NCBI RefSeq assembly: GCF_003386285.1
Contig: NZ_QPNC01000015.1
Span: 1-64,000, forward strand
Source: Nocardiopsis sp. FIRDI 009
Lineage (GTDB): Bacteria; Actinomycetota; Actinomycetes; Streptosporangiales; Streptosporangiaceae
Reading direction: 5' to 3'
Length of the DNA: 64,000 nt
The translations under genes and the position numbers were made by a program. The notes below the pieces were generated by a model that was not told the DNA's origin, ran no database searches, and saw nothing but the letters and a program-made list of their open reading frames with translations. Of the stretch, positions 2,287-14,166 are shown piece after piece; position 1 is the stretch's first letter, and every line of letters starts with the position of its first letter.

Positions 2287-3255
2287 TCAGATGATCGGCG
2301 GGCGTCCCGCGCGCGTCATCCGCCAGGCGGTCGACCACCGGATCGGCGTGCGCGGACCGGCGTCCTCGCGCCAGCCCTCGCGGAAGCCGCCGAACCACGA
2401 CCGCAGCGCCGCCCGGTCGCGCTCGCGCAGCAGCGTCAGCCCGACCCAGGTGCCCAGGTAGGCGAAGGCCAGCGGCCAGGGCAGGTTGCGGCGGGCCAGC
2501 CACACCCGGTTGCGGGCGTTGAGCCGGTAGAAGTTCTCATGCCGGGTCGGCGCGACCGCCGGGTGGTACATGACCGCGTCGGCGTCGTACTCGATCGTGT
2601 AGCCCGCGTCCATGATCCGCCAGGCCAGGTCGGTCTCCTCGTGGGCGTAGAAGAACTCGCCCGGTAGGCCGCCGCCCTCCTCGAACGCCGTGCGCCGGAT
2701 CGCGCACGCCCCGCCCAGGAACGTGGTCACCACACTCGACCTGCGGGAGTCGCCCACCCGCAGCCGGGGCACGTGGCGACGCTGGTCCGGCCCCCCGTCC
2801 GGGTCGGCGATCCGGAAGGACAGCGCGCCCAGCTCCGGGTCGGCGGCGAACCGGTCCCGTACGTGCCGGGCCAGGTCGGTCGAGCGGTACCACCCGTCGT
2901 CGTCCAGGAACAGCACGACGTCGCCCTTGGTCGCGCGCACCCCGTGGTTGCGCCCCTCGGGGATGCCCACGTTCTCCGGCAGCCGCACCGTCGTGACGCC
3001 CTCGGGCAGCTTGGGCAGGTCCGCGCCGTTGCCGACCACGACCACCTCGACGTCCGCGTCCTCCTGCTCGAACACACTGGTGATCGCCCTGCGCAGTTCG
3101 GCGGGGCGGTTGCCCATGGTGAGCAGGACACAGGACAGCGTGGGCTGGATGGGACCGGACACCTCGGGACGGCTCCGTTCGGCTCGCGGCGCTCGGGAGT
3201 CCTCCTCCTCGGACGCGCCGGAGACCGGTGAGGGCGGGATCACGGATGTGGCCAT
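2287..3255 (-). CDS. Glycosyltransferase family 2 protein
   Basis: The 322-residue protein has a GT-A fold. A disordered, charged N-terminus of about 40 residues is followed by the family 2 core. The nucleotide-sugar site includes GNGADLP and the metal-binding LDDD (about residues 127-130), and the acceptor-side EETDLAWR motif supplies the catalytic base region of GT2 enzymes. It has rhamnosyltransferase-like features, but the substrate is not clear. The start is ATG 3255 without a strong ribosome-binding site. It is separated by 155 bp from the upstream CDP-alcohol transferase gene, so it may have its own promoter. Confidence 0.85.
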   Translation of the reverse strand: MATSVIPPSPVSGASEEEDSRAPRAERSRPEVSGPIQPTLSCVLLTMGNRPAELRRAITSVFEQEDADVEVVVVGNGADLPKLPEGVTTVRLPENVGIPEGRNHGVRATKGDVVLFLDDDGWYRSTDLARHVRDRFAADPELGALSFRIADPDGGPDQRRHVPRLRVGDSRRSSVVTTFLGGACAIRRTAFEEGGGLPGEFFYAHEETDLAWRIMDAGYTIEYDADAVMYHPAVAPTRHENFYRLNARNRVWLARRNLPWPLAFAYLGTWVGLTLLRERDRAALRSWFGGFREGWREDAGPRTPIRWSTAWRMTRAGRPPII

Positions 3256-3410: not shown

Positions 3411-4181
3411 TTACTCCAGGCGACGCGAGGCGACCACGCTCACGAAGTGGGCGAAGCTCATCACCACGCCCACGACCGCGCACGCGGCCACGAGCACGCG
3501 GGTCGCGGTCAGGTCGCCCAGGAAGGCGTCCACGACCGCCGCCACCACGACCAGCAGCGACAGTTCGACCGCCTGGATCACGCGGTGGACCTTCAGCGCG
3601 GAGGCCAGCCGCCGGGCCAGGCTCAGTCCGGACGAGCGCGGGCGCATCGCCTCGGCCGTGACCTCCTCCGGCAGTCCCGCCTTGGCCCGGGCCACCACGA
3701 CGTTGTCCGTCTCGGCCTTGATCAGCGCGACACCGATCGCCGCGGCCATCCCGAGGATGACCCAGCCGCCCGGCGCCAGGTCGCCCTGGGCGCGCACGCC
3801 CAGCCCGATGAGCAGGGCGATCTCCGACACGTAGTGGCCGATCCGGTCCAGGTAGATCCCCGCCACGCTGGTCCGGCCCGTGTACCGTGCGACCTCGCCG
3901 TCGGAGCAGTCCAACAGCAGGTAGACCTGCACCAGCACGGCCGCCAGGATCGCCGACCACAGCCCCCCGAGGGCCACGACCACCCCGGCCAGGACGCCGA
4001 ACGCCATCATCAGGTAGGTGATCGGGTTCGGCGGGACGCGGAGCCGGACGAACAGTGTGCTCAGGTACGGGGAGATGTCCCGCATGTAGTAGCGGCCCGC
4101 CCAGTGTTCCTCGTTCACACGCTCCTTGATCCCCGCGGGCTGACCGCCCGCGCGGACCTCAGCGACCGACGGCTTCGACAT
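3411..4181 (-). CDS. CDP-alcohol phosphatidyltransferase-family membrane enzyme
   Basis: The 256-residue polytopic membrane protein has the CDP-alcohol phosphotransferase signature: DCSDGEVAR (residues about 90-98) followed by GIYLDRIGH. The first three acidic positions are present, but the fourth, normally the catalytic base Asp, is His here. As I recall, close actinobacterial homologues also lack Asp there, so it may be a family trait rather than a defect. It should join a CDP-activated alcohol or lipid with an alcohol or polyol phosphate in the membrane. ATG 4181 is chosen because homologues start near MSKPSVAE; a GTG lies at 4193. It overlaps the end of the upstream dehydrogenase gene, implying translational coupling. 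Confidence 0.85.
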   Translation of the reverse strand: MSKPSVAEVRAGGQPAGIKERVNEEHWAGRYYMRDISPYLSTLFVRLRVPPNPITYLMMAFGVLAGVVVALGGLWSAILAAVLVQVYLLLDCSDGEVARYTGRTSVAGIYLDRIGHYVSEIALLIGLGVRAQGDLAPGGWVILGMAAAIGVALIKAETDNVVVARAKAGLPEEVTAEAMRPRSSGLSLARRLASALKVHRVIQAVELSLLVVVAAVVDAFLGDLTATRVLVAACAVVGVVMSFAHFVSVVASRRLE

Positions 4182-5226
4182 AGTCCGCGACACTCCGCTT
4201 GATCTCGTCCTCGGAGAGGTTCAGGTGTTCAAGGATGGTGAAGCGACCGGGACGCGTGCCCGGAGCGTGAACCACGGCGCGCACGAAGTCCCCCTCGTCG
4301 AGCCCCACGTCGGTGGGCAGCACCGGCAGCCGGTGGCGGATCAGGCAGGAGCGGATCTCCTCCAGCCGCCGTTGCGACCAGCCCAGGTGGCGCACCCGCA
4401 GGAAGGACGCGTACAACGCGCCCAGTCCGGCGAGCTCACCGTGGTTGCTGGTCCCCGGGTGGAGCTGGGTGACGGCGTGCAGGATCTCGTGGCACGCGCC
4501 GCTGGCCGGGCGGCTGGACCCGGCCACCGACATCGCCATCCCGGAGAGCACCAGGCCCTCGGCGAGCACGGCGAGGAAGGCGTCGGACTCGATGGAGTCG
4601 GGGCGGTGCAGGACCGCCTCGGCCGCGACCCGGGCGAAGGTGACCGCCATGCCGTCGACCGGTTCCTCGGTGATCCGGCCCGCCAGCTCCCAGTCCTCGA
4701 TGGCCGAGATGTTGCTGACGACGTCGCCGATGCCGGAGCGGACCAGGTGCGGGGGGGCGGCCTGGACGTAGTCGAGGTCGATGACCACGGCGATGGGCAT
4801 GGTCACGCCGATGGACGGCTTGCCGCCCTCGTGTTCGAGGGAGCTGACCGGGGAGGCGATCCCGTCGTGCGCCAGGTTGGTGGCCACGGCGACCATGGGG
4901 ATGCCCGCCATCGTCGCGGCGAACTTGGTCACGTCGATGGTCTTGCCGCCGCCGATGCCCGCGACCGCCTCGTAGGCGCCCGACCGCAGCTTCTTGCCGA
5001 GGTCGGTGGCGGCGTCCACGGTGCCCTCGGTGACCTGGAAGACCTCGCACTCGGGCAGGTCCAGGTCGGCGGCGATGTTCGCGCCCTGGCCCGGACCGAC
5101 CGCGACCGCGATGCGGCCCTCGGTGGCGATCCGGCGGTCAGCGAGCACCGAGCCGAGGGAGGCGATGGCGCCCCGGCGCACGTCGATCGCCAGGGGGGAG
5201 GGGAGCATTCGCGCTAGTAGCGGCAC
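4159..5226 (-). CDS. Iron-containing alcohol dehydrogenase family, sn-glycerol-1-phosphate dehydrogenase-like
   Basis: The 355-residue protein has an NAD-binding GGGKTID motif followed by the metal-binding residues of the group III dehydrogenase/G1P dehydrogenase/dehydroquinate synthase superfamily: Asp in NLAHDG, His in SGACHE and His in SNHGE. It is predicted to reduce dihydroxyacetone phosphate, or a related ketose phosphate, to a polyol phosphate. The GTG at 5226 is chosen because homologues begin with a PLLxRxxPSP segment; ATG 5208 is the alternative. It overlaps the nucleotidyltransferase stop by 13 nt and the CDP-alcohol transferase start by 23 nt, so the three are a coupled operon. 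Confidence 0.8.
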   Translation of the reverse strand: MPLLARMLPSPLAIDVRRGAIASLGSVLADRRIATEGRIAVAVGPGQGANIAADLDLPECEVFQVTEGTVDAATDLGKKLRSGAYEAVAGIGGGKTIDVTKFAATMAGIPMVAVATNLAHDGIASPVSSLEHEGGKPSIGVTMPIAVVIDLDYVQAAPPHLVRSGIGDVVSNISAIEDWELAGRITEEPVDGMAVTFARVAAEAVLHRPDSIESDAFLAVLAEGLVLSGMAMSVAGSSRPASGACHEILHAVTQLHPGTSNHGELAGLGALYASFLRVRHLGWSQRRLEEIRSCLIRHRLPVLPTDVGLDEGDFVRAVVHAPGTRPGRFTILEHLNLSEDEIKRSVADYVEAVGR

Positions 5227-5945
5227 GCGATCTCCCTCGCCTTGGCCAGGTCGTCGTGGTTGTCGACCTCGACCCACGGGACGTCGCCGATCGGGGCGAC
5301 GGAGATCTTCTCCCCGCGGTTGACGAGCTCCTGGTAGCCGTCCTCGTAGTACAGCTGCGGGTCGCGCTCCCAGGTGGCCTTGAGGGCGTCGGCCAGGCGG
5401 GCGTCGAGCGAGCCCTCGATGAGGGTGGCGCCGATGTACTCGCCCGCGGCGGTGGCCGGGTCCATCAGCTTGGTGATGGTCCTGACGTGGCCGCCCTCGT
5501 CGAGGGTCACCTTCATCTCCTCGTCGGCCAGATTTTTCACGTCGTCCACCGCGAGGAGGAGTTCCGGGCCCCGTGCCGCGAGTAGCGTTTCCTCCACGCT
5601 CACGGGATGAACCGTGTCACCGTTGACGAGGAGGACGCCCTCGGAGAAGAACTCGCGTGCGGTCCACAGGGAGTAGGCGTTGTTCCACTCCTCGGCCCTG
5701 TCGTTGTAGCTGAGGGTGATCTTGACGCCGTGGCGCTCCTCCAGCGCCTCCTTGCGCTCCTCCACGGCCTCCGCACGGTAACCGACCACCACGACGACGT
5801 CGGTGAGCCCGGCGGCGGCGAGGTTGCGCAGCGAGATGTCCATAATGGTCGTCTCGCCGTCGACGGGCACCAGGGCCTTGGGCAGGGTGTCGGTGTAGGG
5901 GCGCAGACGCCGTCCCGCGCCTGCGGCGAGAACCAGTCCGAGCAT
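5214..5945 (-). CDS. Nucleotidyltransferase (sugar- or polyol-phosphate nucleotidyltransferase)
   Basis: The 243-residue protein is an NTP_transferase-fold enzyme. It begins with the nucleotide-binding LVLAAGAGRRLRPYT loop and the LPKALVPV motif, has a metal-binding VNGDT, and ends with VEVDNHDD. The fold resembles phosphocholine cytidylyltransferase (LicC-like) and sugar-1-phosphate nucleotidylyltransferases. It should activate an alcohol or sugar phosphate as its NDP derivative. With the downstream G1P-dehydrogenase-like and CDP-alcohol transferase genes, a CDP-glycerol-type product is plausible but unproven. It starts at ATG 5945, with AAGGAGG 11 nt upstream, and is the first gene of the three-gene operon. 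Confidence 0.85.
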   Translation of the reverse strand: MLGLVLAAGAGRRLRPYTDTLPKALVPVDGETTIMDISLRNLAAAGLTDVVVVVGYRAEAVEERKEALEERHGVKITLSYNDRAEEWNNAYSLWTAREFFSEGVLLVNGDTVHPVSVEETLLAARGPELLLAVDDVKNLADEEMKVTLDEGGHVRTITKLMDPATAAGEYIGATLIEGSLDARLADALKATWERDPQLYYEDGYQELVNRGEKISVAPIGDVPWVEVDNHDDLAKAREIACRY

Positions 5946-5979
5946 GAGGGCGTGTTCCTCCTTAGGTCGGGGAGACGCC

Positions 5980-6723
5980 TCACGCCTCCCCGTTCGTTCC
6001 GGCGGCCGGTCGGCCCCCGTCCTCGTGGTCGAGTGGGGTCGTCCGGGGACCTCCCCGGTCCGTGTCGCCTCCGCGGGGGAACGCGTCGGCGGTCGTGCAC
6101 ACCTCGGTCACCGGCGTCGCGCACCAGGAGCGCACGGCTTCGCGGACGAGCAGCACCGCCAGGTATCCGGCGAGTGCGCCGTAGGCGGGTCCGAGCACGT
6201 GGAACGCGCCACCGACCGCGATGACGAGCATCCGCCCGTCCCACCCGAGCGCCGCCCCGCGCACCCATGCGGGTCGGGCGACGCCGACGGAGGGGCGTGC
6301 GACGTCGTCGCGGTGGTGGCAGACGACCACCACCAAGAGTACGAAGACCAGGGGACCGGGTACACCGGACGCCAGACCCAGAACCGTCAGGTACCCGTAC
6401 TCGGTGACGCGGAGGACGGGCGGCACGAGCCAGTCGAAGCGCCCGTCGTGCGGGTGTCCCGAGGCCAGACCGGACAGTAGCAGGGCAGCGACCGGTGCGA
6501 ACAGCGTAATGCCTGCGAGCTGTCCCCGGACCGCCACGAGCAAGGTCGCGACGACGAGGAGGCCGGTGAGCGCCGGGAGCAGGGGCGCGACCGCCCCCGG
6601 GGCGACCCTGCCGAGCAGCGCGCAGACGCGGCTGTCGTCACGCAGCGTCCTCAGGTCGGGGACGGCGGCGCGCAGGCGTTCGCGCGGGGCCCCGTCGGCG
6701 GTGCCCGGAACGCGTGCGGTCAC
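5980..6723 (-). CDS. Polytopic membrane protein, DUF5941-like
   Basis: The 247-residue protein has four or more hydrophobic segments (for example VAPLLPALTGLLVVATLLVAV and GPLVFVLLVVVV) and a charged, disordered tail. I recognise no catalytic motif. It resembles a membrane domain (DUF5941-like) that I associate with CDP-alcohol transferase genes in actinobacteria, but that assignment is from memory. The start is the GTG at 6723, which overlaps the TGA of the upstream gene as GTGA, so the two are translationally coupled. Only 34 bp separate it from the nucleotidyltransferase start downstream, so all five genes from 7571 to 3411 may be one transcript. Confidence 0.7.
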   Translation of the reverse strand: MTARVPGTADGAPRERLRAAVPDLRTLRDDSRVCALLGRVAPGAVAPLLPALTGLLVVATLLVAVRGQLAGITLFAPVAALLLSGLASGHPHDGRFDWLVPPVLRVTEYGYLTVLGLASGVPGPLVFVLLVVVVCHHRDDVARPSVGVARPAWVRGAALGWDGRMLVIAVGGAFHVLGPAYGALAGYLAVLLVREAVRSWCATPVTEVCTTADAFPRGGDTDRGGPRTTPLDHEDGGRPAAGTNGEA

Positions 6724-7571
6724 TTGTCCGCCTCCTGGGCGGTGGGGTCGACGAGTTCCCCGGTCACGGCCAGGGCGCAGCCGACGATGAGGGTGAGGAA
6801 GGCGACCCGCGCGTCCCAGAGCGTGGCGGCGACGGCGATGGCCAGGAAACGCGTGGGCTGGGCGAAGACCATGACCCGGCGGATCGCGGTCGGCAGGGGC
6901 GCTCCCGCGGGGCGCGGCGGTCGGCCGTCCCGGTGCGCGGGGCCGTCGGGCCGTGTGTCGCGGTCCGTCCCCCGGTCCGCCCCCCGCGCGGTGGCCGTCC
7001 CACGGGGGGCGTCTTTGAGCAGGCGCTCGGTGAGGCGCGGATCGTTCTCCCGGCAGTCCCGGGGCGGGGGCGGCACCAGGCCGGCCATGAGCCCCTCCCG
7101 GCCCTCGGGTCCGCCGTCCGGGCGCGGCGCGCGACCACCGCCTCCGAGGGCGGTGTCCATGCCGTGGCCGGGGGCGGTGGGCGCCGCGCGGGCCACCAGG
7201 AAGGCGTCCCGCAGCGCCAGGGCGATGAGCGCCCCGGCGGCCCAGCCCCAGGCGCCCTGGATGCCCTCGGCGACCGCGCCGAGGGCGAGTCCGACGTAGA
7301 CGACGTACTCGCGCAGTTGGCCGAGCATCGCGGCCACCCACATGGTGAGCGCGTCGCGGCGGTCGGTGCGGATGCGCGCGCGGACGGCGTCGCAGAACAG
7401 CACGGCTCCGAGGAAGGCGGATCCGACGAGGCAGCCGACGGTGTCGGCCCGGGAGAACCAGACCGCCGCCGCGAGCGCCGCCAGGACGCTGATCCGTGTC
7501 ACCCCGGAGCGGGTGACGCTCCTGCGTTCCAACATCCGCGCGGTCGACCGCGCCACCGTGCCCTTGGCCAT
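6720..7571 (-). CDS. Membrane protein with a disordered insert
   Basis: The 283-residue protein has hydrophobic segments at about residues 25-60 and 80-125, then a hydrophilic Arg/Asp/Gly/Pro-rich stretch of roughly 90 residues, then another pair of hydrophobic segments near the C-terminus. No known catalytic motif is visible. Start choice is clear: ATG 7571 has GGAGGAGG seven bases upstream. It overlaps the next gene by GTGA, and the two may act as one membrane unit in envelope polymer synthesis. A palindrome at 7601-7619 lies just upstream. Confidence 0.7.
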   Translation of the reverse strand: MAKGTVARSTARMLERRSVTRSGVTRISVLAALAAAVWFSRADTVGCLVGSAFLGAVLFCDAVRARIRTDRRDALTMWVAAMLGQLREYVVYVGLALGAVAEGIQGAWGWAAGALIALALRDAFLVARAAPTAPGHGMDTALGGGGRAPRPDGGPEGREGLMAGLVPPPPRDCRENDPRLTERLLKDAPRGTATARGADRGTDRDTRPDGPAHRDGRPPRPAGAPLPTAIRRVMVFAQPTRFLAIAVAATLWDARVAFLTLIVGCALAVTGELVDPTAQEADK

Positions 7572-7780: not shown

Positions 7781-8659
7781 TCAGGCGGCCCGCCCGCCGT
7801 TGGGCCCCTCACCGTCCTCGCGCTTCTGGTCCGCCTCGCGCTTCTTCTTCTCCGCCTCGCGCTTCTTGCGCTCGGCGATCTCGGCCTTGGTGTCCTCGTT
7901 GTAGGCGTCCAGGGCCGCCTCGATGTCGGTGTCCAGGGCGAGCCCGCCGCCCTTGATGTACAGACCCCGGTTGCAGAACCTGCGCAGGTCGTTCTCGCTG
8001 TGGGAGACCAGGACCATCGTGCGCTGGTTGGCCAGCATCCGGTCGATCGCCTCGTAGCACTTGCGTTTGAACGCCTTGTCGCCGACCGCGAGGACCTCGT
8101 CGACGAGCATGATGGGGTGCTCCAGCTGGGAGATCAGGGCGAAGCCGAGCCGGACCTTCATCCCGCTGGAGTAGTGGCGCACCGGGGAGTCGACGAACTT
8201 CGACTTGATCTCGGCGAAGTCGATGATCTCCTCGAAGCGCTCGTCGATCTCCTTCTCCGACATCCCGTGCAGCGAACCGACCAGGTACACGTTCTCGCGA
8301 CCGGTCAGGTTGTCGTTGAACCCGGCCCGCAGCTCCAGCAGCGGCGCGACCCTGCCGTGCACGTGGACCTCGCCCTCGTCGGGCATGAGCACCCCGGCGA
8401 TGAGCTTGAGCAGGGTCGACTTGCCGGTGCCGTTCTTGCCGACGATGCCCACGCAGTCACCGCGGGCGACCTCGAAGGAGACGTCGCGCAGGGGCCAGAA
8501 CTCGTCGCCCTCGGCGTTGGGGTCGCGTTTGGTCCCGTGGATGAACATCTCGCGCAGGCTGCGCTTGCGGCGCCGGTTCACGGCGAACTTCACGCCGAGC
8601 CCCTTGGCCTCGATGACCGGTCCGCCGGTGCCCTCGGCGCCGTAGGTGGTCTGCGCCAT
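7781..8659 (-). CDS. ABC transporter ATPase, TagH/Wzt-like polysaccharide exporter subunit
   Basis: The 292-residue ATPase has Walker A GIVGKNGTGKST, a signature region HYSSGMKVRLGFA, Walker B PIMLVDEVLAVGD and switch His in VLVSHS. The N-terminal extension and the KSLREMF-like region before the ATPase core are typical of teichoic-acid (TagH) and O-antigen (Wzt) exporters. A lysine/glutamate-rich coiled tail of about 40 residues ends the protein and is not a clear carbohydrate-binding domain. It powers export of lipid-linked polymer across the membrane with the permease encoded directly upstream; the genes overlap as TGATG with AAGGAG as ribosome-binding site. Confidence 0.9.
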   Translation of the reverse strand: MAQTTYGAEGTGGPVIEAKGLGVKFAVNRRRKRSLREMFIHGTKRDPNAEGDEFWPLRDVSFEVARGDCVGIVGKNGTGKSTLLKLIAGVLMPDEGEVHVHGRVAPLLELRAGFNDNLTGRENVYLVGSLHGMSEKEIDERFEEIIDFAEIKSKFVDSPVRHYSSGMKVRLGFALISQLEHPIMLVDEVLAVGDKAFKRKCYEAIDRMLANQRTMVLVSHSENDLRRFCNRGLYIKGGGLALDTDIEAALDAYNEDTKAEIAERKKREAEKKKREADQKREDGEGPNGGRAA

Positions 8660-9519
8660 CACAACTCCTTCAGGACGGACGTCTCCAGGCGGCGGAACGT
8701 CCAGTACCCGATGACCAGCATCAGGACCGAACCCACCACCGAAGAGGTCAACGCCAGGGTGGTCGGTGTGAGTTCCTCGAATCCAGCGAACCACACCGTC
8801 CGGTGCATCTGGAAGATACCCATCAGGGGGTTGAGCTGGAAGATCGTCGCCGCCCAGCCCGGGAGGTCCTCGGAGTCCAACACCATGACGGCGGGGAAGA
8901 GGATCGCCGACCCGTAGAAGAGCAGGCGGGTGAGGATGCGCGTCAGGCGTTCCACGTCGCGCAGCAGGACGTTGACCGAGGACAGGAACAGGGTGACGCC
9001 GAGGCCGAACATGAACGTGAGCACGACCGCCAGCGGCAGCCACAGGAGCAGGCCCTCCACCGTGGGGCGACCGCCGAGCGCGAACACGAAGACCAGCAGG
9101 ACGGGCCAGGTCAGCAGGTACTCGACGAGCTTGGTGCCCACCGTCGCCAGGGGGAAGATCTCCCGCGGCACCTTCATCGTGGTGATCAGCTTGGAGTGCG
9201 TGATCATCGTCCGGGGGGCCTCGCCGAGGATCTGCCCGAACGTCGTCCACGGCAGGATGCCCGCGACCAGGAACAGCAGGAACCCGCCGAACTCCGTGGC
9301 GTCCTCGGGCATCCCCCGGTTCGCCTCGAGGATGATGCCGAAGACGAAGAAGTAGACCAGGGTCATGGCCAGGGGTTCCAGCATCGTCCAGGCGTACCCG
9401 AGTACGGACTGCTGGTACTTGACCTTCAGGTCGCGCCGGACCAGGAGGCCGACGACCTTCCGGTGCTCCCAGACGGCCAGCGTCCTTGACGCCACCGCCA
9501 CCTCCAAGGATTGATTCAC
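8659..9519 (-). CDS. ABC transporter permease, TagG/Wzm-like
   Basis: The 286-residue ABC-2 type permease has about six hydrophobic segments and the family's N-terminal KVKYQQSVLGYAWTMLEPL region. It partners the downstream TagH-like ATPase to export an undecaprenyl-linked cell-wall polymer. The annotated start is GTG 9519, which overlaps the TGA of a small upstream reading frame as GTGA. A GTG at 9495 is an alternative, with GGAGG five bases upstream. If 9495 is used, the protein loses eight residues and the coupling argument weakens. Confidence 0.88.
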   Translation of the reverse strand: MNQSLEVAVASRTLAVWEHRKVVGLLVRRDLKVKYQQSVLGYAWTMLEPLAMTLVYFFVFGIILEANRGMPEDATEFGGFLLFLVAGILPWTTFGQILGEAPRTMITHSKLITTMKVPREIFPLATVGTKLVEYLLTWPVLLVFVFALGGRPTVEGLLLWLPLAVVLTFMFGLGVTLFLSSVNVLLRDVERLTRILTRLLFYGSAILFPAVMVLDSEDLPGWAATIFQLNPLMGIFQMHRTVWFAGFEELTPTTLALTSSVVGSVLMLVIGYWTFRRLETSVLKEL

Positions 9520-9707
9520 GTCCGGGTGTCGAAGGTCTCCGGACGGGCGTGTAGGTACTCACCTGCGCGCACCGAGCCGACGTTCACGGCGGCCCCGTCC
9601 TCACCGGGCCACGGCACGGCGGGGCCGTATCCGAGCGTGTGGGGGATGTCGCGGACCGCGCCCGGCCTCGTGACCGTGTCGAAGGAGGTTCGGACCGGGC
9701 GCGCCAT
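9516..9707 (-). CDS. Small hypothetical protein coupled to the ABC permease
   Basis: This is a 63-residue frame whose codons are roughly 90% G/C at the third position, which is strong evidence of coding. Its TGA overlaps the permease GTG as GTGA, the same arrangement used by real gene pairs across this window. The protein has no membrane segment or known domain; it is rich in Pro, Gly and Arg and ends ETFDTRT. ATG 9707 is chosen, but ATG 9719 in frame would add four residues. A weak -10 (TATTCT, at 9732-9737 on the minus strand) sits just upstream. I do not recognise its function. Confidence 0.5.
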   Translation of the reverse strand: MARPVRTSFDTVTRPGAVRDIPHTLGYGPAVPWPGEDGAAVNVGSVRAGEYLHARPETFDTRT

Positions 9708-9849
9708 ACAGGCGTCCATAGGGTACCGCCGAGAATAACGGGCCGAACCACCAGGAGGGTGCGTACCGGAGCCGTCCAGTAGTGTCGGCGACTGGATTCC
9801 CCGTGCGTACGCCCCGAGCGCGGGCGCGCGTCCCGAGAAAGGCGAAGAG
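9708..9849. other. Divergent promoter region of the exporter and cytidylyltransferase genes
   Basis: The whole gap between the permease (9519) and the cytidylyltransferase (9850) is 330 bp. The left part is filled by the small frame at 9516-9707. The remainder is likely promoter DNA for both directions: TAGTGT at 9779-9784 could be a -10 on the plus strand and AGAATA at 9732-9737 a -10 for the minus strand. Neither has a convincing -35. Confidence 0.35.
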
Positions 9850-10611
9850 ATGTCCGCAGCCGCACGCGTGATCGCCGCGGTCCTGGCCGGAGGGGTGGGC
9901 GCGCGCATGGGCGCGGCCACGCCCAAACAGCTGCTCCCACTGGCGGGACGGCCGATCATCGAGCACTCGATCGCCGCCTTCGAGGACTGCCCGGAGGTGG
10001 ACGAGGTCGTCGTCCTGATGGTCGCCGAGTACGTGGGCCGGGTGGAGGACATCGTCGCCGACGCCGGGTTCACCAAGGTCAGCCGGGTACTGCCGGGCGG
10101 CGCCACCCGGACCGAGACCTCCTACGCCGCTCTGACGGCGATGGCGTCGGCCGCCGACAGCGACCTGGCCCTGCTGCACGACGCGGCGCGGCCGCTGCTG
10201 CGCCCGGCCACGGTCACCGCGTGCGTGTCGGCACTGGGTGAGGCGGGCGCGGTCGGAGTGGCCGTGCCCAGCACGGACACGACCGTGCGGGTGGCCCCCG
10301 GCCGGACCGGCGGGGAGGCGATCGTGTCCGTCCCCCCGCGCGCCGAGCTGCGGCGGATGCAGACCCCGCAGGGGTTCCGTCTGGGGGTGCTCCGCCGCGC
10401 CTACGAGCTGGCGATGGCCGATCCCGGGCTGGTCGCCACCGACGATTGCGGCGTGGTGCTGCGGTACCTGCCCGAGGAGGAGGTCCGGATCGTGCCGGGT
10501 GAGGAGGGCAACATCAAGGTGACCAACCCGGGCGACGTCGAGATCGCCGAGACCCTGCTGCGGCGGGTCACGGCCCCGGAGCGGAGCGGGGAGGGGGAGG
10601 CGGCGCGGTGA
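9850..10611 (+). CDS. IspD/TarI-family cytidylyltransferase, probably ribitol-5-phosphate type
   Basis: The 253-residue enzyme has the cytidylyltransferase signature AAVLAGGVGARMG, a PKQLLPLAG loop, LLHDAARPL, and TPQGFRL followed by TDDCGVVL. The segment EHSIAAFEDCPEVDEVVVLM resembles teichoic-acid and capsule cytidylyltransferases more than housekeeping IspD. The predicted reaction is CTP plus a polyol phosphate to CDP-polyol plus pyrophosphate. A role as IspD (methylerythritol phosphate pathway) cannot be excluded from sequence alone. It overlaps the downstream phosphodiesterase gene by GTGA, and sits between the exporter and the LCP gene, supporting wall-polymer synthesis. Confidence 0.75.
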   Translation: MSAAARVIAAVLAGGVGARMGAATPKQLLPLAGRPIIEHSIAAFEDCPEVDEVVVLMVAEYVGRVEDIVADAGFTKVSRVLPGGATRTETSYAALTAMASAADSDLALLHDAARPLLRPATVTACVSALGEAGAVGVAVPSTDTTVRVAPGRTGGEAIVSVPPRAELRRMQTPQGFRLGVLRRAYELAMADPGLVATDDCGVVLRYLPEEEVRIVPGEEGNIKVTNPGDVEIAETLLRRVTAPERSGEGEAAR

Positions 10612-11393
10612 GCGGACTGTTCACGCCGACCGAGGTGATCGGCCACCGGGGCGCCGGGCGCGGCGTGGTCGAGGGGGCCGCGGAGAACTCCCCGGCCTCC
10701 TACGCCGCCGCGGCCGGGGCCGGGGCCGACTGGGTGGAGATCGACGTGCGGCGCACGGCCGACGACGCGCTGGTCCTGTACCACGACGCGGCCCTGGCCG
10801 ACGGACGGGCGATCGTGGACCTGACCGCCGAGGAGTGCGCGGCGGCGGGGCTGGTCGGTCTGGAGGAGGGGCTGGCCGCCGTTCCGCCCGGGGTGGGGGT
10901 GGACGTGGACGTCAAGTCGGTGATGGAGGACGCGGTCGACGCGCCGTCGCGCCGGACGGTGTCGCTCCTCCTCCCCCACCTGCGCCGGGAGGCCCGGCGG
11001 CGGCGCGTGTTCGTGTGCTCCTTCGACCCCGGCGTCCTGCTCGCCGTGCGCGAGAGCGCGCCGGAGGTGCCGACGGCGTGGATGCCCTACGTGCGCAACC
11101 CGCTGGACCAGGCGGTGGCGGGGGCGGCGGGGATGGGCTGCCCGATCGTGGCGCTCGACGCGCGCTCGCTCGGCCGGACCGGGGACGCGCCCCGGCCGGG
11201 CCGCCGTTCGGTGGCCCACACCGTCGACCTGGCGCACCGCGCCGGGCTGGAGGTGATCTCGTGGTGCCCGGACCCGGTGGACGCGGCCCGGTTCGCCGAG
11301 GCGGGGATGGACGCGGTCGTGGTGGACGACGTGCCCGGGACGGTGTCGGCGCTCAAGGCGGCCGCGGGTGAGGGCCCAGCCGGGGCGGGGTGA
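10608..11393 (+). CDS. Glycerophosphodiester phosphodiesterase family protein
   Basis: The 261-residue protein has the GDPD barrel signature: IGHRGAG near the N-terminus (catalytic His13 and Arg14), AENS, the metal-binding VEIDVRRTADD and the second catalytic His in LYHDAAL. It lacks a signal peptide and is probably cytoplasmic. Enzymes of this family hydrolyse glycerophosphodiesters to sn-glycerol-3-phosphate and an alcohol. Its start GTG overlaps the TGA of the cytidylyltransferase gene, so the two products are likely made in step, perhaps to recycle or trim glycerophosphate polymer intermediates. Confidence 0.85.
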   Translation: MSGLFTPTEVIGHRGAGRGVVEGAAENSPASYAAAAGAGADWVEIDVRRTADDALVLYHDAALADGRAIVDLTAEECAAAGLVGLEEGLAAVPPGVGVDVDVKSVMEDAVDAPSRRTVSLLLPHLRREARRRRVFVCSFDPGVLLAVRESAPEVPTAWMPYVRNPLDQAVAGAAGMGCPIVALDARSLGRTGDAPRPGRRSVAHTVDLAHRAGLEVISWCPDPVDAARFAEAGMDAVVVDDVPGTVSALKAAAGEGPAGAG

Positions 11394-11412
11394 CGGCGGC
11401 TCGCCCGGGGCG

Positions 11413-12420
11413 TCAGGACCCGGTGCGCGACGCCCGCGCGGTGCGCGAGTCGGAGCCGAGCCCGGGCGGGCTGGTGATGAACCCGATCCCCCAGGACATG
11501 TGCATCGTCGTGAGGGCCAGCGGGATCATCGGCGCGCTGGCGGCGGGCAGCCCCCTGGCGAGCGGCACCGACGCCACCGTGACCAGGGCCAGGTAGGCGG
11601 CGGGCACGAGGAACAGCGGCCACCAGAACACGCCACCGACCAGCCCGGCGACGATCCCCGCCACCGCCAGGGGCGGAGCCAGGTAGCGCAGGTTGATCGT
11701 GCCCTTGTGCTGGCGGGCGACCACGCGCCGCCAGCGCCCGTAGTGGAAGTACTGCTTGGCCAGCAGGCGCACGTTCCGCCGGGGCCGGTAGGAGACCCGC
11801 ATGCGCGGCTGGAACCACACCGTCCCGCCGCTGGTGCGGATGCGGTGGTTCATCTCCCAGTCCTGCGCGCGCAGGAACGCCTCGTCGTAGCCGCCGACTC
11901 GTTCGAGCGCCGACCTGCGGAAGACACCCAGGTAGACGGTGTCCGCCGGGCCGCCCTCGCCCCCGGTGTGGAAGCGCGCGTTACCCACGCCCACCTTGGA
12001 GGTCATCGCCGCCGCGACGGCCTTCTCCCAGGGCGTGGTGCCCTCGGCGGCCATGATCCCGCCGACGTTGTCCGCCCCCGTCTCCCGCAGGGTCTCCACG
12101 GCCACCCGCAGGTAGTCCGACGGCATCATCGCGTGCCCGTCGATCCGGGCCACGATGTCGTGGCTGGAGGCGCCGATGGCGGCGTTGAGCCCGGCCGGGG
12201 TCCGCCCCGTGGGGTTGTCCACGACCTTGACCCGGGGGTCGGCGGCGGCGAGCCCGTCGGCGACCTCGCGGGTGCGGTCGGTGGAGGGACCCACGCCCAG
12301 CACGACCTCCAGTTCGCCCGGGTACTCCTGGGCGAGGACGTGCTCCACCGCGGCGGCGAGGTGGCGCTCTTCGTTGAGAACGGGCATGACGACGGAGACT
12401 GGCGGCCAGGACACGGGCAC
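11413..12420 (-). CDS. Glycosyltransferase family 2 membrane protein
   Basis: The 335-residue protein begins with the GT2 core: VSVVMPVLNEE, a GPSTDRT donor loop, ARIDGHAM in place of the usual DxD region, and a QDWEMNHRI acceptor motif near residue 187. Two or three hydrophobic segments follow in the C-terminal third (about 240-315), so it is membrane-anchored. It resembles ExoA-type glycosyltransferases. GTG 12420 is the start; no strong ribosome-binding site is visible. It converges with the phosphodiesterase gene with only a 19-bp gap. Confidence 0.85.
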   Translation of the reverse strand: MPVSWPPVSVVMPVLNEERHLAAAVEHVLAQEYPGELEVVLGVGPSTDRTREVADGLAAADPRVKVVDNPTGRTPAGLNAAIGASSHDIVARIDGHAMMPSDYLRVAVETLRETGADNVGGIMAAEGTTPWEKAVAAAMTSKVGVGNARFHTGGEGGPADTVYLGVFRRSALERVGGYDEAFLRAQDWEMNHRIRTSGGTVWFQPRMRVSYRPRRNVRLLAKQYFHYGRWRRVVARQHKGTINLRYLAPPLAVAGIVAGLVGGVFWWPLFLVPAAYLALVTVASVPLARGLPAASAPMIPLALTTMHMSWGIGFITSPPGLGSDSRTARASRTGS

Positions 12421-12663: not shown

Positions 12664-14166
12664 ATGAGCGACGACAACGCCGGTCGGCAGGGACCTTCGG
12701 AGGAGTTCCGGCGCAAGCGTTCCCAGCCGCTCCCGCCCGAGGGGCGCCGATCTCCCCGGTCGGGCCGGGTGACGGTGCCCCCGGCCGCCGTACGCCGCCG
12801 CCGGACCGGCCTGCTGGTCATGGGGGCGCTGTCGGCGCTGGTCCTGCTGGCCTCCGGCACGTCGTGGGCGATCACGGGGTGGATGTCCGGGGCGCTCAAC
12901 CGCTTCGACGTGTTCGGGGCGCTGGCCGAGGACAGCCGCCCCGGCAGCGGCTCCGGCGGCCTCACCTTCCTGGTGATCGGGTCCGACTCGCGCGGGGAGA
13001 TGAGCCGGGAGAACCGGGACGCGCTGAGTGTGGGCTCCACGCCGGGCCGCCGGTCCGACGTCATCATGCTGGTGCGCGTCAACGACGACCGCGACCGCGT
13101 CACCGTCGTCGGCATCCCCCGCGACCTGTGGGTCGACATCCCGGGCGAGGGCGAGGACAAGATCAACGCCGCCTACGCCTACGGGGGGCCGACGATGACC
13201 GTCCGGACCGTGGAAGCCCTGACGGACGTGCGCGTCGACCACTACGTCGAGGTGGACTTCGAGGGCTTCGTGGACGTGGTGGACGCCCTCGGCGGCATCG
13301 AGGTGTGCCTGCCCGAGGCGATCGACGACCCCAAGGCCCACCTGGACATGGCGGCGGGCACACACGAGGTCGACGGCGCCGAGGCGCTGGCCTTCTCCCG
13401 CACCCGCGCCACCGCGCGCGGCGACCTGGACCGGATCGACCGCCAGCAGCAGGTGCTGTCCGCCATGCTCGACCGGGCGATGAGCACCGAGACCCTCACC
13501 GACCCCGCGCGGTTGGCCGCGTTCCTGGAGAGCGCCCTGTCGTCGGTGACCGTCGACGAGGAGCTGGACGGGAGCACCCTCAACGAGCTGGCATACCAGC
13601 TGCGCGACCTGGACCTGGAGCAGGTCACGTTCACCCAGGTGCCGATCGCCGACATGGACCACTGGACGCCGCGCGGGGACGTCGCGCTGCTGTGGGACGA
13701 GCCCGCGGCGCGCGACCTGTTCGCCGACGTCCGCGCCGACCGCCCGATCAGGGAGGGGGAACCGGCGGAGGACGCCTCCCCCGAGCCGCCGGACCCGGCC
13801 GACATCCGGATCCGGGTGTTCAACGGGACCGCGACCCCGGGTCTGGGCGCGCGGACCGACCGCAACCTCGGCCAGGTCGGGTTCGACGTCATCGCTCCGG
13901 CCGCCAACTGGGACAGCCGCGACCTGGCCACCACGCAGATCCGCCACGCTCCCGGGGACGAGGCCGAGGCGGAGTTCGTCTCCGGGATCTTCCCCGGTTC
14001 GGAACCGGTGGAGGACCGTACCCTGGAGGACGAGATCCAGGTCGTCCTCGGCTTCAACTACACGACGTTCAACGCCCCCGAGATCCCCGAGCCCGCGCCG
14101 GAGGAGACGCCGGCCCAGGACGGTCCGCTGGCCACGACGACCGCCCGGGAGAACATCTGCGGGTGA
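12664..14166 (+). CDS. LCP (LytR-CpsA-Psr) family wall-polymer ligase
   Basis: The 500-residue protein has a cytoplasmic basic N-terminus of about 50 residues, one transmembrane helix (about 52-75), and the extracellular LCP catalytic domain. The core includes FLVIGSDSR, RSDVIMLVRV with its conserved Arg/Asp, and GIPRDLWVDIPG. A LytR_C domain follows (about 375-465), starting IRIRVFNGTATPG. LCP proteins transfer teichoic acid, arabinogalactan or capsular polymers from the lipid carrier to peptidoglycan. Here it would attach the polymer exported by the nearby ABC transporter. ATG 12664 is the start. Confidence 0.9.
   Translation: MSDDNAGRQGPSEEFRRKRSQPLPPEGRRSPRSGRVTVPPAAVRRRRTGLLVMGALSALVLLASGTSWAITGWMSGALNRFDVFGALAEDSRPGSGSGGLTFLVIGSDSRGEMSRENRDALSVGSTPGRRSDVIMLVRVNDDRDRVTVVGIPRDLWVDIPGEGEDKINAAYAYGGPTMTVRTVEALTDVRVDHYVEVDFEGFVDVVDALGGIEVCLPEAIDDPKAHLDMAAGTHEVDGAEALAFSRTRATARGDLDRIDRQQQVLSAMLDRAMSTETLTDPARLAAFLESALSSVTVDEELDGSTLNELAYQLRDLDLEQVTFTQVPIADMDHWTPRGDVALLWDEPAARDLFADVRADRPIREGEPAEDASPEPPDPADIRIRVFNGTATPGLGARTDRNLGQVGFDVIAPAANWDSRDLATTQIRHAPGDEAEAEFVSGIFPGSEPVEDRTLEDEIQVVLGFNYTTFNAPEIPEPAPEETPAQDGPLATTTARENICG

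Follow-up and report, generated by a model that had tools for sequence, protein, structure and literature searches.

On balance we favour a reading in which the operon at positions 3411–7571 of the window supplies and uses cytidine diphosphate (CDP)-activated glycerol for a teichoic acid, and in which two of its genes, hereafter the pair, would take sn-glycerol-1-phosphate to CDP-glycerol. We put the chance of this at a little better than even. The window is the whole stretch of DNA that was analysed, 64,000 nt of Nocardiopsis sp. FIRDI 009 (contig NZ_QPNC01000015.1, positions 1–64,000). The operon has five genes, all on the minus strand, and an earlier note on this DNA had placed them correctly. 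The pair consists of NTP, a LicC-like cytidylyltransferase (5214–5945), and a dehydrogenase of the AraM/EgsA type that resembles glycerol-1-phosphate dehydrogenase (G1PDH; 4159–5208). They are followed by CDPOH, a CDP-alcohol phosphotransferase, and preceded by two membrane proteins, DUF5941 and MEM2. Individual genomes are denoted below by G-numbers, G000 being the genome of the window, and individual loci by L-numbers.

In the proposed pathway the dehydrogenase would reduce dihydroxyacetone phosphate (DHAP) to sn-glycerol-1-phosphate, and NTP would join this to cytidine triphosphate (CTP), giving CDP-glycerol of the opposite handedness to the product of TagD. A TarF/TagF-type polymerase, whose gene lies elsewhere in the genome, would build the chain. 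CDPOH and the glycosyltransferase GT2a would probably place the first unit on a lipid carrier or make a lipid-linked primer, the role of CDPOH being the weakest step. A TagGH exporter would carry the chain out of the cell, and a LytR-CpsA-Psr (LCP) protein may anchor it in the wall. The teichoic acid would thus share the handedness of lipoteichoic acid.

The cytidylyltransferase and dehydrogenase pair

The pair was followed in an order sample of 121 genomes, where orthologues were called at E 1e-25 or better, and in a class sample of 246 genomes. Each gene is found in 120 of the 121 order genomes, and the same single genome is without both. The class sample has NTP in 59 genomes and G1PDH in 60, and all 59 NTP genomes carry G1PDH. 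The sixtieth, G187, has no NTP match; its G1PDH gene lies 137 bases from a contig end. Over 123 loci with both genes, some of them the same genome counted twice, the two are less than 200 bp apart on one strand in 122, and the gap is exactly 5 bp in 100. L142, where they are 10 kb apart, is an exception. Outside the order the ends of the two matches are separated by 8–17 bp in 33 of 34. A mirror-tree check over 22 loci gave r = 0.57, with none of 2000 permutations as high, a result that cannot tell linkage from shared ancestry. Thermobifida fusca has the operon (L041). In the window NTP and G1PDH are 5 bp apart (ATG start) and G1PDH overlaps CDPOH by 35 bp, so that the earlier description of three overlapping genes holds for the second junction and not for the first. 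Plasmid p1 of Streptomyces fungicidicus (L170 6429–19038) carries genes for DUF5941, a cytidylyltransferase, a dehydrogenase, a CDP-alcohol transferase, a glycosyltransferase and an ABC transporter. The hopanoid genes hpnC, hpnD, hpnE and shc adjoin the operon genes in the same stretch.

NTP matches PF00483 with 53.6 bits (cut-off 21.2) and also PF12804. The closest solved chain is LicC (1jyk), both by single sequence and by profile, and the list of structures also holds the inositol-1-phosphate cytidylyltransferase IPCT (2xme) and sugar-1-phosphate enzymes. Residues W87, N88, N89, Y91, D110 and K145 are invariant in all 22 aligned sequences, and the counterpart in Streptomyces fungicidicus is annotated as belonging to the phosphocholine cytidylyltransferase family. 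NTP likely uses CTP, a point that sequence does not settle, and we propose it to be a CTP:sn-glycerol-1-phosphate cytidylyltransferase.

The dehydrogenase matches PF13685 with 93.8 bits, the cut-off being 28. Among the NCBIfam models it scores best with NF002022, that of G1PDH, and its best solved chains are 3ce9, named a glycerol dehydrogenase, followed by 4rgq, 4rfl and 5fb3, named G1PDH. A likeness to the archaeal enzyme had been remarked upon earlier; the score of 239.3 bits with NF002022 falls short of the equivalog cut-off of 413. The GGG motif, H240, H244 and H256 are present in 24 of 24 homologues and D162 in 23; we take the conserved D/H/H residues to be metal ligands. The protein is a candidate DHAP reductase. 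The phylogeny of bacterial G1PDH is discussed in passages of PMC6431249 and PMC5059525, and according to the former Firmicutes and Actinobacteria form the main bacterial clan. A distant relative of the dehydrogenase, 33% identical, is found on a Nitratidesulfovibrio plasmid (L171 5737–6786) with no annotated adjoining cytidylyltransferase.

Two alternatives concern the fate of sn-glycerol-1-phosphate. The dehydrogenase is of the same family as AraM of Bacillus subtilis, and an archaeal-type ether lipid might be made here as it is by AraM and PcrB in that species. We searched for GGGPS/PcrB with PF01884 at E 1e-6 and found it in none of the 246 class genomes, while five of 14 controls were positive, B. 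subtilis included; an ether lipid is thus rejected, and we give it almost no weight. In the second alternative the substrate of NTP is sn-glycerol-3-phosphate and its product the standard CDP-glycerol, and G1PDH has some other function. A passage of PMC7086022 gives sn-3 CDP-glycerol as the precursor of wall teichoic acid in B. subtilis, and the glycerol phosphate cytidylyltransferases Cps3B and Cps7B are described in part of PMC8262930 as accepting both enantiomers. Against this stand the joint presence of NTP and G1PDH in every NTP genome of the class sample, their 5 bp spacing in 100 of 123 loci, and the lack of a match to GGGPS, the known lipid-type user of glycerol-1-phosphate. We consider ordinary chirality improbable.

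The link to TagF-type polymerases and TagD

In B. subtilis CDP-glycerol is the product of TagD, for which we used the model TIGR01518 (cut-off 165.4 bits); the TagF-type polymerase was represented by PF04464. PF04464 is found in 93 of the 246 class genomes: 57 of the 59 pair genomes have it, compared with 36 of the 187 others. Outside the order the corresponding figures are 32 of 34 and 36 of 187. TagD behaves in the opposite way. At 109 bits or above, a threshold that we set at a gap in the scores (the next is 84), it is present in none of the 59 pair genomes and in 20 of the 187 others; three of the 246 exceed the model's own cut-off. In the order sample no genome out of 121 has TagD over the cut-off (best score 61.5 bits), and 118 have PF04464. 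Within family f24 one genome, G316, combines the pair with PF04464 and is without TagD, and TagD is found in 15 of the 17 other f24 genomes among the matches listed.

The genome of the window has no TagD match at E 0.001. It has a single PF04464 match at E 1e-10 (G000 C60:63131–64234; L168:6276–10247, 1323 aa), and this protein scores 298 bits with TarF and 112 with TarL, both under the cut-off. Five polymerases were scored, this one and four from relatives, and in each the TarF model is best and below its cut-off. In L136, L137 and L138 a protein of the TagF type, combining GT2 and Glyphos_transf domains, is encoded 5.4, 1.7 and 4.4 kb from the pair; again TarF scores best, below its cut-off.

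The earlier note left the product as a lipid or a polymer of opposite stereochemistry. We favour the polymer because the pair tracks PF04464, is never found with TagD at the chosen threshold, has a TagF-type gene at a distance of 1.7–5.4 kb in three genomes, and occurs in a class sample devoid of GGGPS matches. The stereochemistry is one that we infer.

CDPOH, related loci and neighbouring genes

CDPOH (3411–4193) matches PF01066 with 28.1 bits (cut-off 22). Its nearest solved relative is AF2299 (4o6m), and the list also contains IPCT-DIPPS and the phosphatidylinositol (PI)-phosphate synthases. We scored the motif DxxDGxxAR(x8)GxxxDxxxD, which we take to be the canonical CDP-alcohol phosphotransferase motif with four Asp; all four are visible in 4o6m. 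In 42 aligned homologues the first three Asp and the G, A, R and G of the motif are present in every case. The fourth Asp is never present, being replaced by His in 40 and Ala in two. The sequence of reduction, activation by CTP and transfer in the membrane that was first suggested fits the families and the gene order, but its last step would fall to a transferase without a conserved motif residue.

Of the 59 pair genomes 54 have CDPOH, as do 28 genomes without an NTP match; of 84 matches in all, those of G197 and G280 were weak and are not counted. In 49 of 81 loci the overlap of CDPOH with G1PDH is 35 bp. This close association suggests a different use for the pair, in which the CDP-sn-glycerol-1-phosphate is made for a lipid and CDPOH transfers its glycerol phosphate to diacylglycerol or some other lipid. 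If diacylglycerol is the acceptor, the product would be phosphatidylglycerol with its usual sn-1' head group, made by a Kennedy-type route. The solved relatives of CDPOH would fit such a role, as would L141 (G197). This genome is one of the five pair genomes without CDPOH, and a different CDP-alcohol transferase (11139–11858), whose four motif Asp are all present, overlaps the end of G1PDH in the usual place of CDPOH. That such a transferase follows the pair there counts slightly for a lipid and slightly against a teichoic acid. Yet CDPOH itself lacks the fourth Asp and is missing from five of the pair genomes, and the pair tracks PF04464 at least equally well. Moreover, in Nocardioides (L054, L055 and L065) the pair is found with a GlfT2-like protein, an exporter and, about 1.6 kb away on the opposite strand, a LicD gene, and there is no CDPOH match. 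A lipid product is therefore unlikely in our view, though it is the strongest of the alternatives.

One Nocardioides locus (L055 5065–13842) has LicD, NTP, G1PDH, the GlfT2-like protein and the exporter together. A glycerol-phosphate-decorated galactan is one possible product. In a passage of PMC11666461 CpsC, a LicD-family transferase, is likened to the glycerophosphotransferase TarF.

IPCT-DIPPS has one half like NTP and one like CDPOH, and AF2299 is likewise similar to CDPOH. A soluble phosphodiester osmolyte such as glycerophosphoinositol, which occurs in Archaeoglobus, might be considered on this basis. The neighbouring exporter, glycosyltransferase and LCP genes and the association with PF04464 speak against such a compound, and we regard it as very improbable.

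We examined 20 loci in which CDPOH lies away from the pair, 18 from among the 28 NTP-less genomes and two from pair genomes with CDPOH on another contig. A relative of GT2a is present in 15 of these. TagD is one gene from CDPOH in one locus (L148), and an IspD-reductase fusion is near it in five (L155, L156, L157, L162 and L165; Pfam domains were read for three of the five). The remaining 14 have neither in the examined stretch, so that the evidence for a swap comes from six of the 20. The genome of L165 also carries the pair elsewhere. All five fusion loci have CDPOH and GT2a near the fusion, and four have TagH. They are probably a CDP-ribitol type of module in other actinobacteria. Given the alternation of TagD, the fusion and the pair beside them, CDPOH and GT2a look like a shared module that is combined with different makers of CDP-polyols. 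Nucleotidyltransferases 29–34% identical to NTP occur in a further set of CDPOH loci in which no G1PDH was found (L151, L153, L154, L164 and L167).

The fusions bear on another alternative, in which a different ketose phosphate is reduced and the pair makes another CDP-polyol. Actinobacterial teichoic acids hold several polyols. The fusions are themselves modules of reductase and cytidylyltransferase, probably acting on another polyol, in related loci, and the dehydrogenase does score under its equivalog cut-off. Yet its best NCBIfam and solved matches are to glycerol-1-phosphate and glycerol dehydrogenases, and the five polymerases fit the glycerol-type TarF best, albeit below cut-off. Another polyol is rather improbable, more so than ordinary chirality.

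A number of observations weigh against the proposed route to a teichoic acid, the missing fourth Asp of CDPOH among them. The best NCBIfam model for NTP is AglF, an enzyme using uridine triphosphate, which it matches with 76 bits (cut-off 400), and the shortfall of the dehydrogenase has been given above. Two of 60 loci (L051 and L064, each 8983–10035) have a G1PDH homologue, 60 and 63% identical, without NTP or any neighbouring cytidylyltransferase. The presence of CDPOH in 28 genomes without NTP means that it need not use the product of the pair. Two of the 59 pair genomes are without PF04464, and the pair and TagD are both missing from 23 of the 93 PF04464 genomes (among them G187, which has G1PDH), so other routes exist. 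As to TagD, eight of the pair genomes show weak TagD-like matches, with 58.7–65.8 bits, and 106 of the 121 order genomes give a match of some kind at E 0.001. Beyond the order the TagD contrast (0 of 34 versus 20 of 187) is marginal, with p = 0.049. The p-values for co-occurrence ignore the relatedness of the genomes. In the genome of L148 (G302), where TagD is one gene from CDPOH, there is no PF04464 match at E 1e-30. Finally, the polymerase gene in the genome of the window is on a different contig from the operon.

The two genes upstream of NTP had been noted as coupled membrane proteins, and their stop and start codons do overlap (GTGA). MEM2 (6720–7571, minus strand) is related to CdpA, a second CDP-alcohol transferase, and has lost the motif. 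It has no Pfam match, and alignment of the two families with hhalign gave a probability of 99.6 and E = 7.4e-24; a new family was therefore rejected. All four motif Asp are invariant in CdpA (nine of nine sequences of other genomes). It seems from these alignments that the second transferase has decayed or changed role in the aligned Nocardiopsaceae loci. The DUF5941 protein (5980–6723, minus strand; PF19365, 80.9 bits, cut-off 27) is in relatives fused to intact CdpA (L057 and L136) or encoded beside it (L044), and we found no mention of DUF5941 in the open-licence PubMed Central (PMC) literature.

GT2a (2287–3255, minus strand; PF00535, 64.8 bits) adjoins CDPOH. On the other side of the operon are a TagH-like ABC exporter ATPase (7781–8659, minus strand; PF00005) and a TagG/Wzm-like permease (8659–9519, minus strand; PF01061, 44.5 bits). 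The best NCBIfam match of the ATPase is a teichoic acid export ATPase, yet it scores 195.9 and 164.8 bits with the teichoic acid models, below their cut-offs of 538 and 320. The permease matches the KpsM and galactan export permease models, each under cut-off. By position and family the two may still act as a teichoic acid exporter. The LCP protein (12664–14166, plus strand; PF03816, 175.9 bits) is a possible ligase to peptidoglycan. Divergent from the exporter is an IspD-like protein (9850–10611) with 167.8 bits, just under the ispD equivalog cut-off of 181.3; it may be an enzyme of the methylerythritol phosphate pathway or a polyol cytidylyltransferase. A glycerophosphodiester phosphodiesterase gene (10608–11393; PF03009, 82 bits) overlaps the end of the IspD-like gene. 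An Rfam scan of the window gave no matches, and a phosphonate cluster was rejected since there is no such neighbour among the scanned genes.

Implications and comparison with known systems

We tentatively extend the proposal, with a confidence somewhat short of even. The wall polyglycerolphosphate of Streptosporangiales, Streptomyces and some other actinomycetes may be enantiomeric to the Bacillus polymer, built from sn-glycerol-1-phosphate with the pair in place of TagD. Its chirality would be that of lipoteichoic acid, and a single pathway in the cytoplasm could yield the two polymers with no need of LtaS. CDPOH, in which His replaces the fourth Asp, would represent a novel type of primer transferase. 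In B. subtilis the phosphoglycerol chains of wall and lipoteichoic acid have opposite chirality and can be distinguished by GlpQ, as a passage of PMC7086022 describes, and wall chirality should be readable with this existing test. The capsule polymerases Cps3D and Cps7D took both enantiomers in vitro (passages of PMC5974469 and PMC8262930).

In passages of PMC3196553 and PMC3089915 LtaS is said to have no clear orthologues in Actinobacteria, and the way in which actinomycetes make polyglycerolphosphate lipoteichoic acid without it is stated to be open. The proposal would bear on this, for example in Thermobifida fusca. The lipoteichoic acid of Streptomyces hygroscopicus resembles wall teichoic acid, according to part of PMC3196553. 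A shared sn-1 CDP-glycerol pathway would account for that likeness; glycerol chirality does not appear in the part of PMC3196553 consulted. The proposal would also bear on the role of actinobacterial glycerol-1-phosphate dehydrogenases in genomes where GGGPS is unmatched, and on the source of CDP-glycerol in TagF-type genomes without TagD over the cut-off. It could touch the recognition of these walls by phages, hydrolases and the immune system.

The neighbourhood is already in print. A passage of PMC13118837 describes a syntenic block in Streptomyces with araM, tagG, tagH, a CDP-alcohol transferase, a GT2 and a nucleotidyltransferase, and mentions it together with teichoic acid biosynthesis. 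This is the same kind of neighbourhood as ours; no pathway, chemistry, test for TagD or chirality is given there. We found no description of a CDP-glycerol route based on glycerol-1-phosphate in the open-licence PMC literature, among the matches listed.

Four known systems offer comparisons. The operon shares its dehydrogenase family with AraM-PcrB of B. subtilis, and differs in that PcrB/GGGPS is unmatched throughout the class sample and the dehydrogenase has a cytidylyltransferase as its partner. In IPCT-DIPPS/AF2299 one part is matched in sequence by NTP and the other by CDPOH, yet here they are separate genes with a dehydrogenase between them, and CDPOH is without the fourth Asp. The reductase-cytidylyltransferase modules of the Bcs1/Acs1 type, which we take to make CDP-ribitol, likewise form a polyol phosphate by reduction and activate it with a neighbouring domain or gene, using unrelated enzyme families and another polyol. 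A like logic is seen in the wall teichoic acid pathway TagD-TagB-TagF of B. subtilis, with CDP-glycerol, a PF04464 polymerase (here scoring best with TarF) and a TagGH exporter. The Nocardiopsis genome has no TagD match and one PF04464 match; G1PDH and the LicC-like enzyme would stand in for TagD, and the glycerol phosphate would be sn-1 rather than sn-3.

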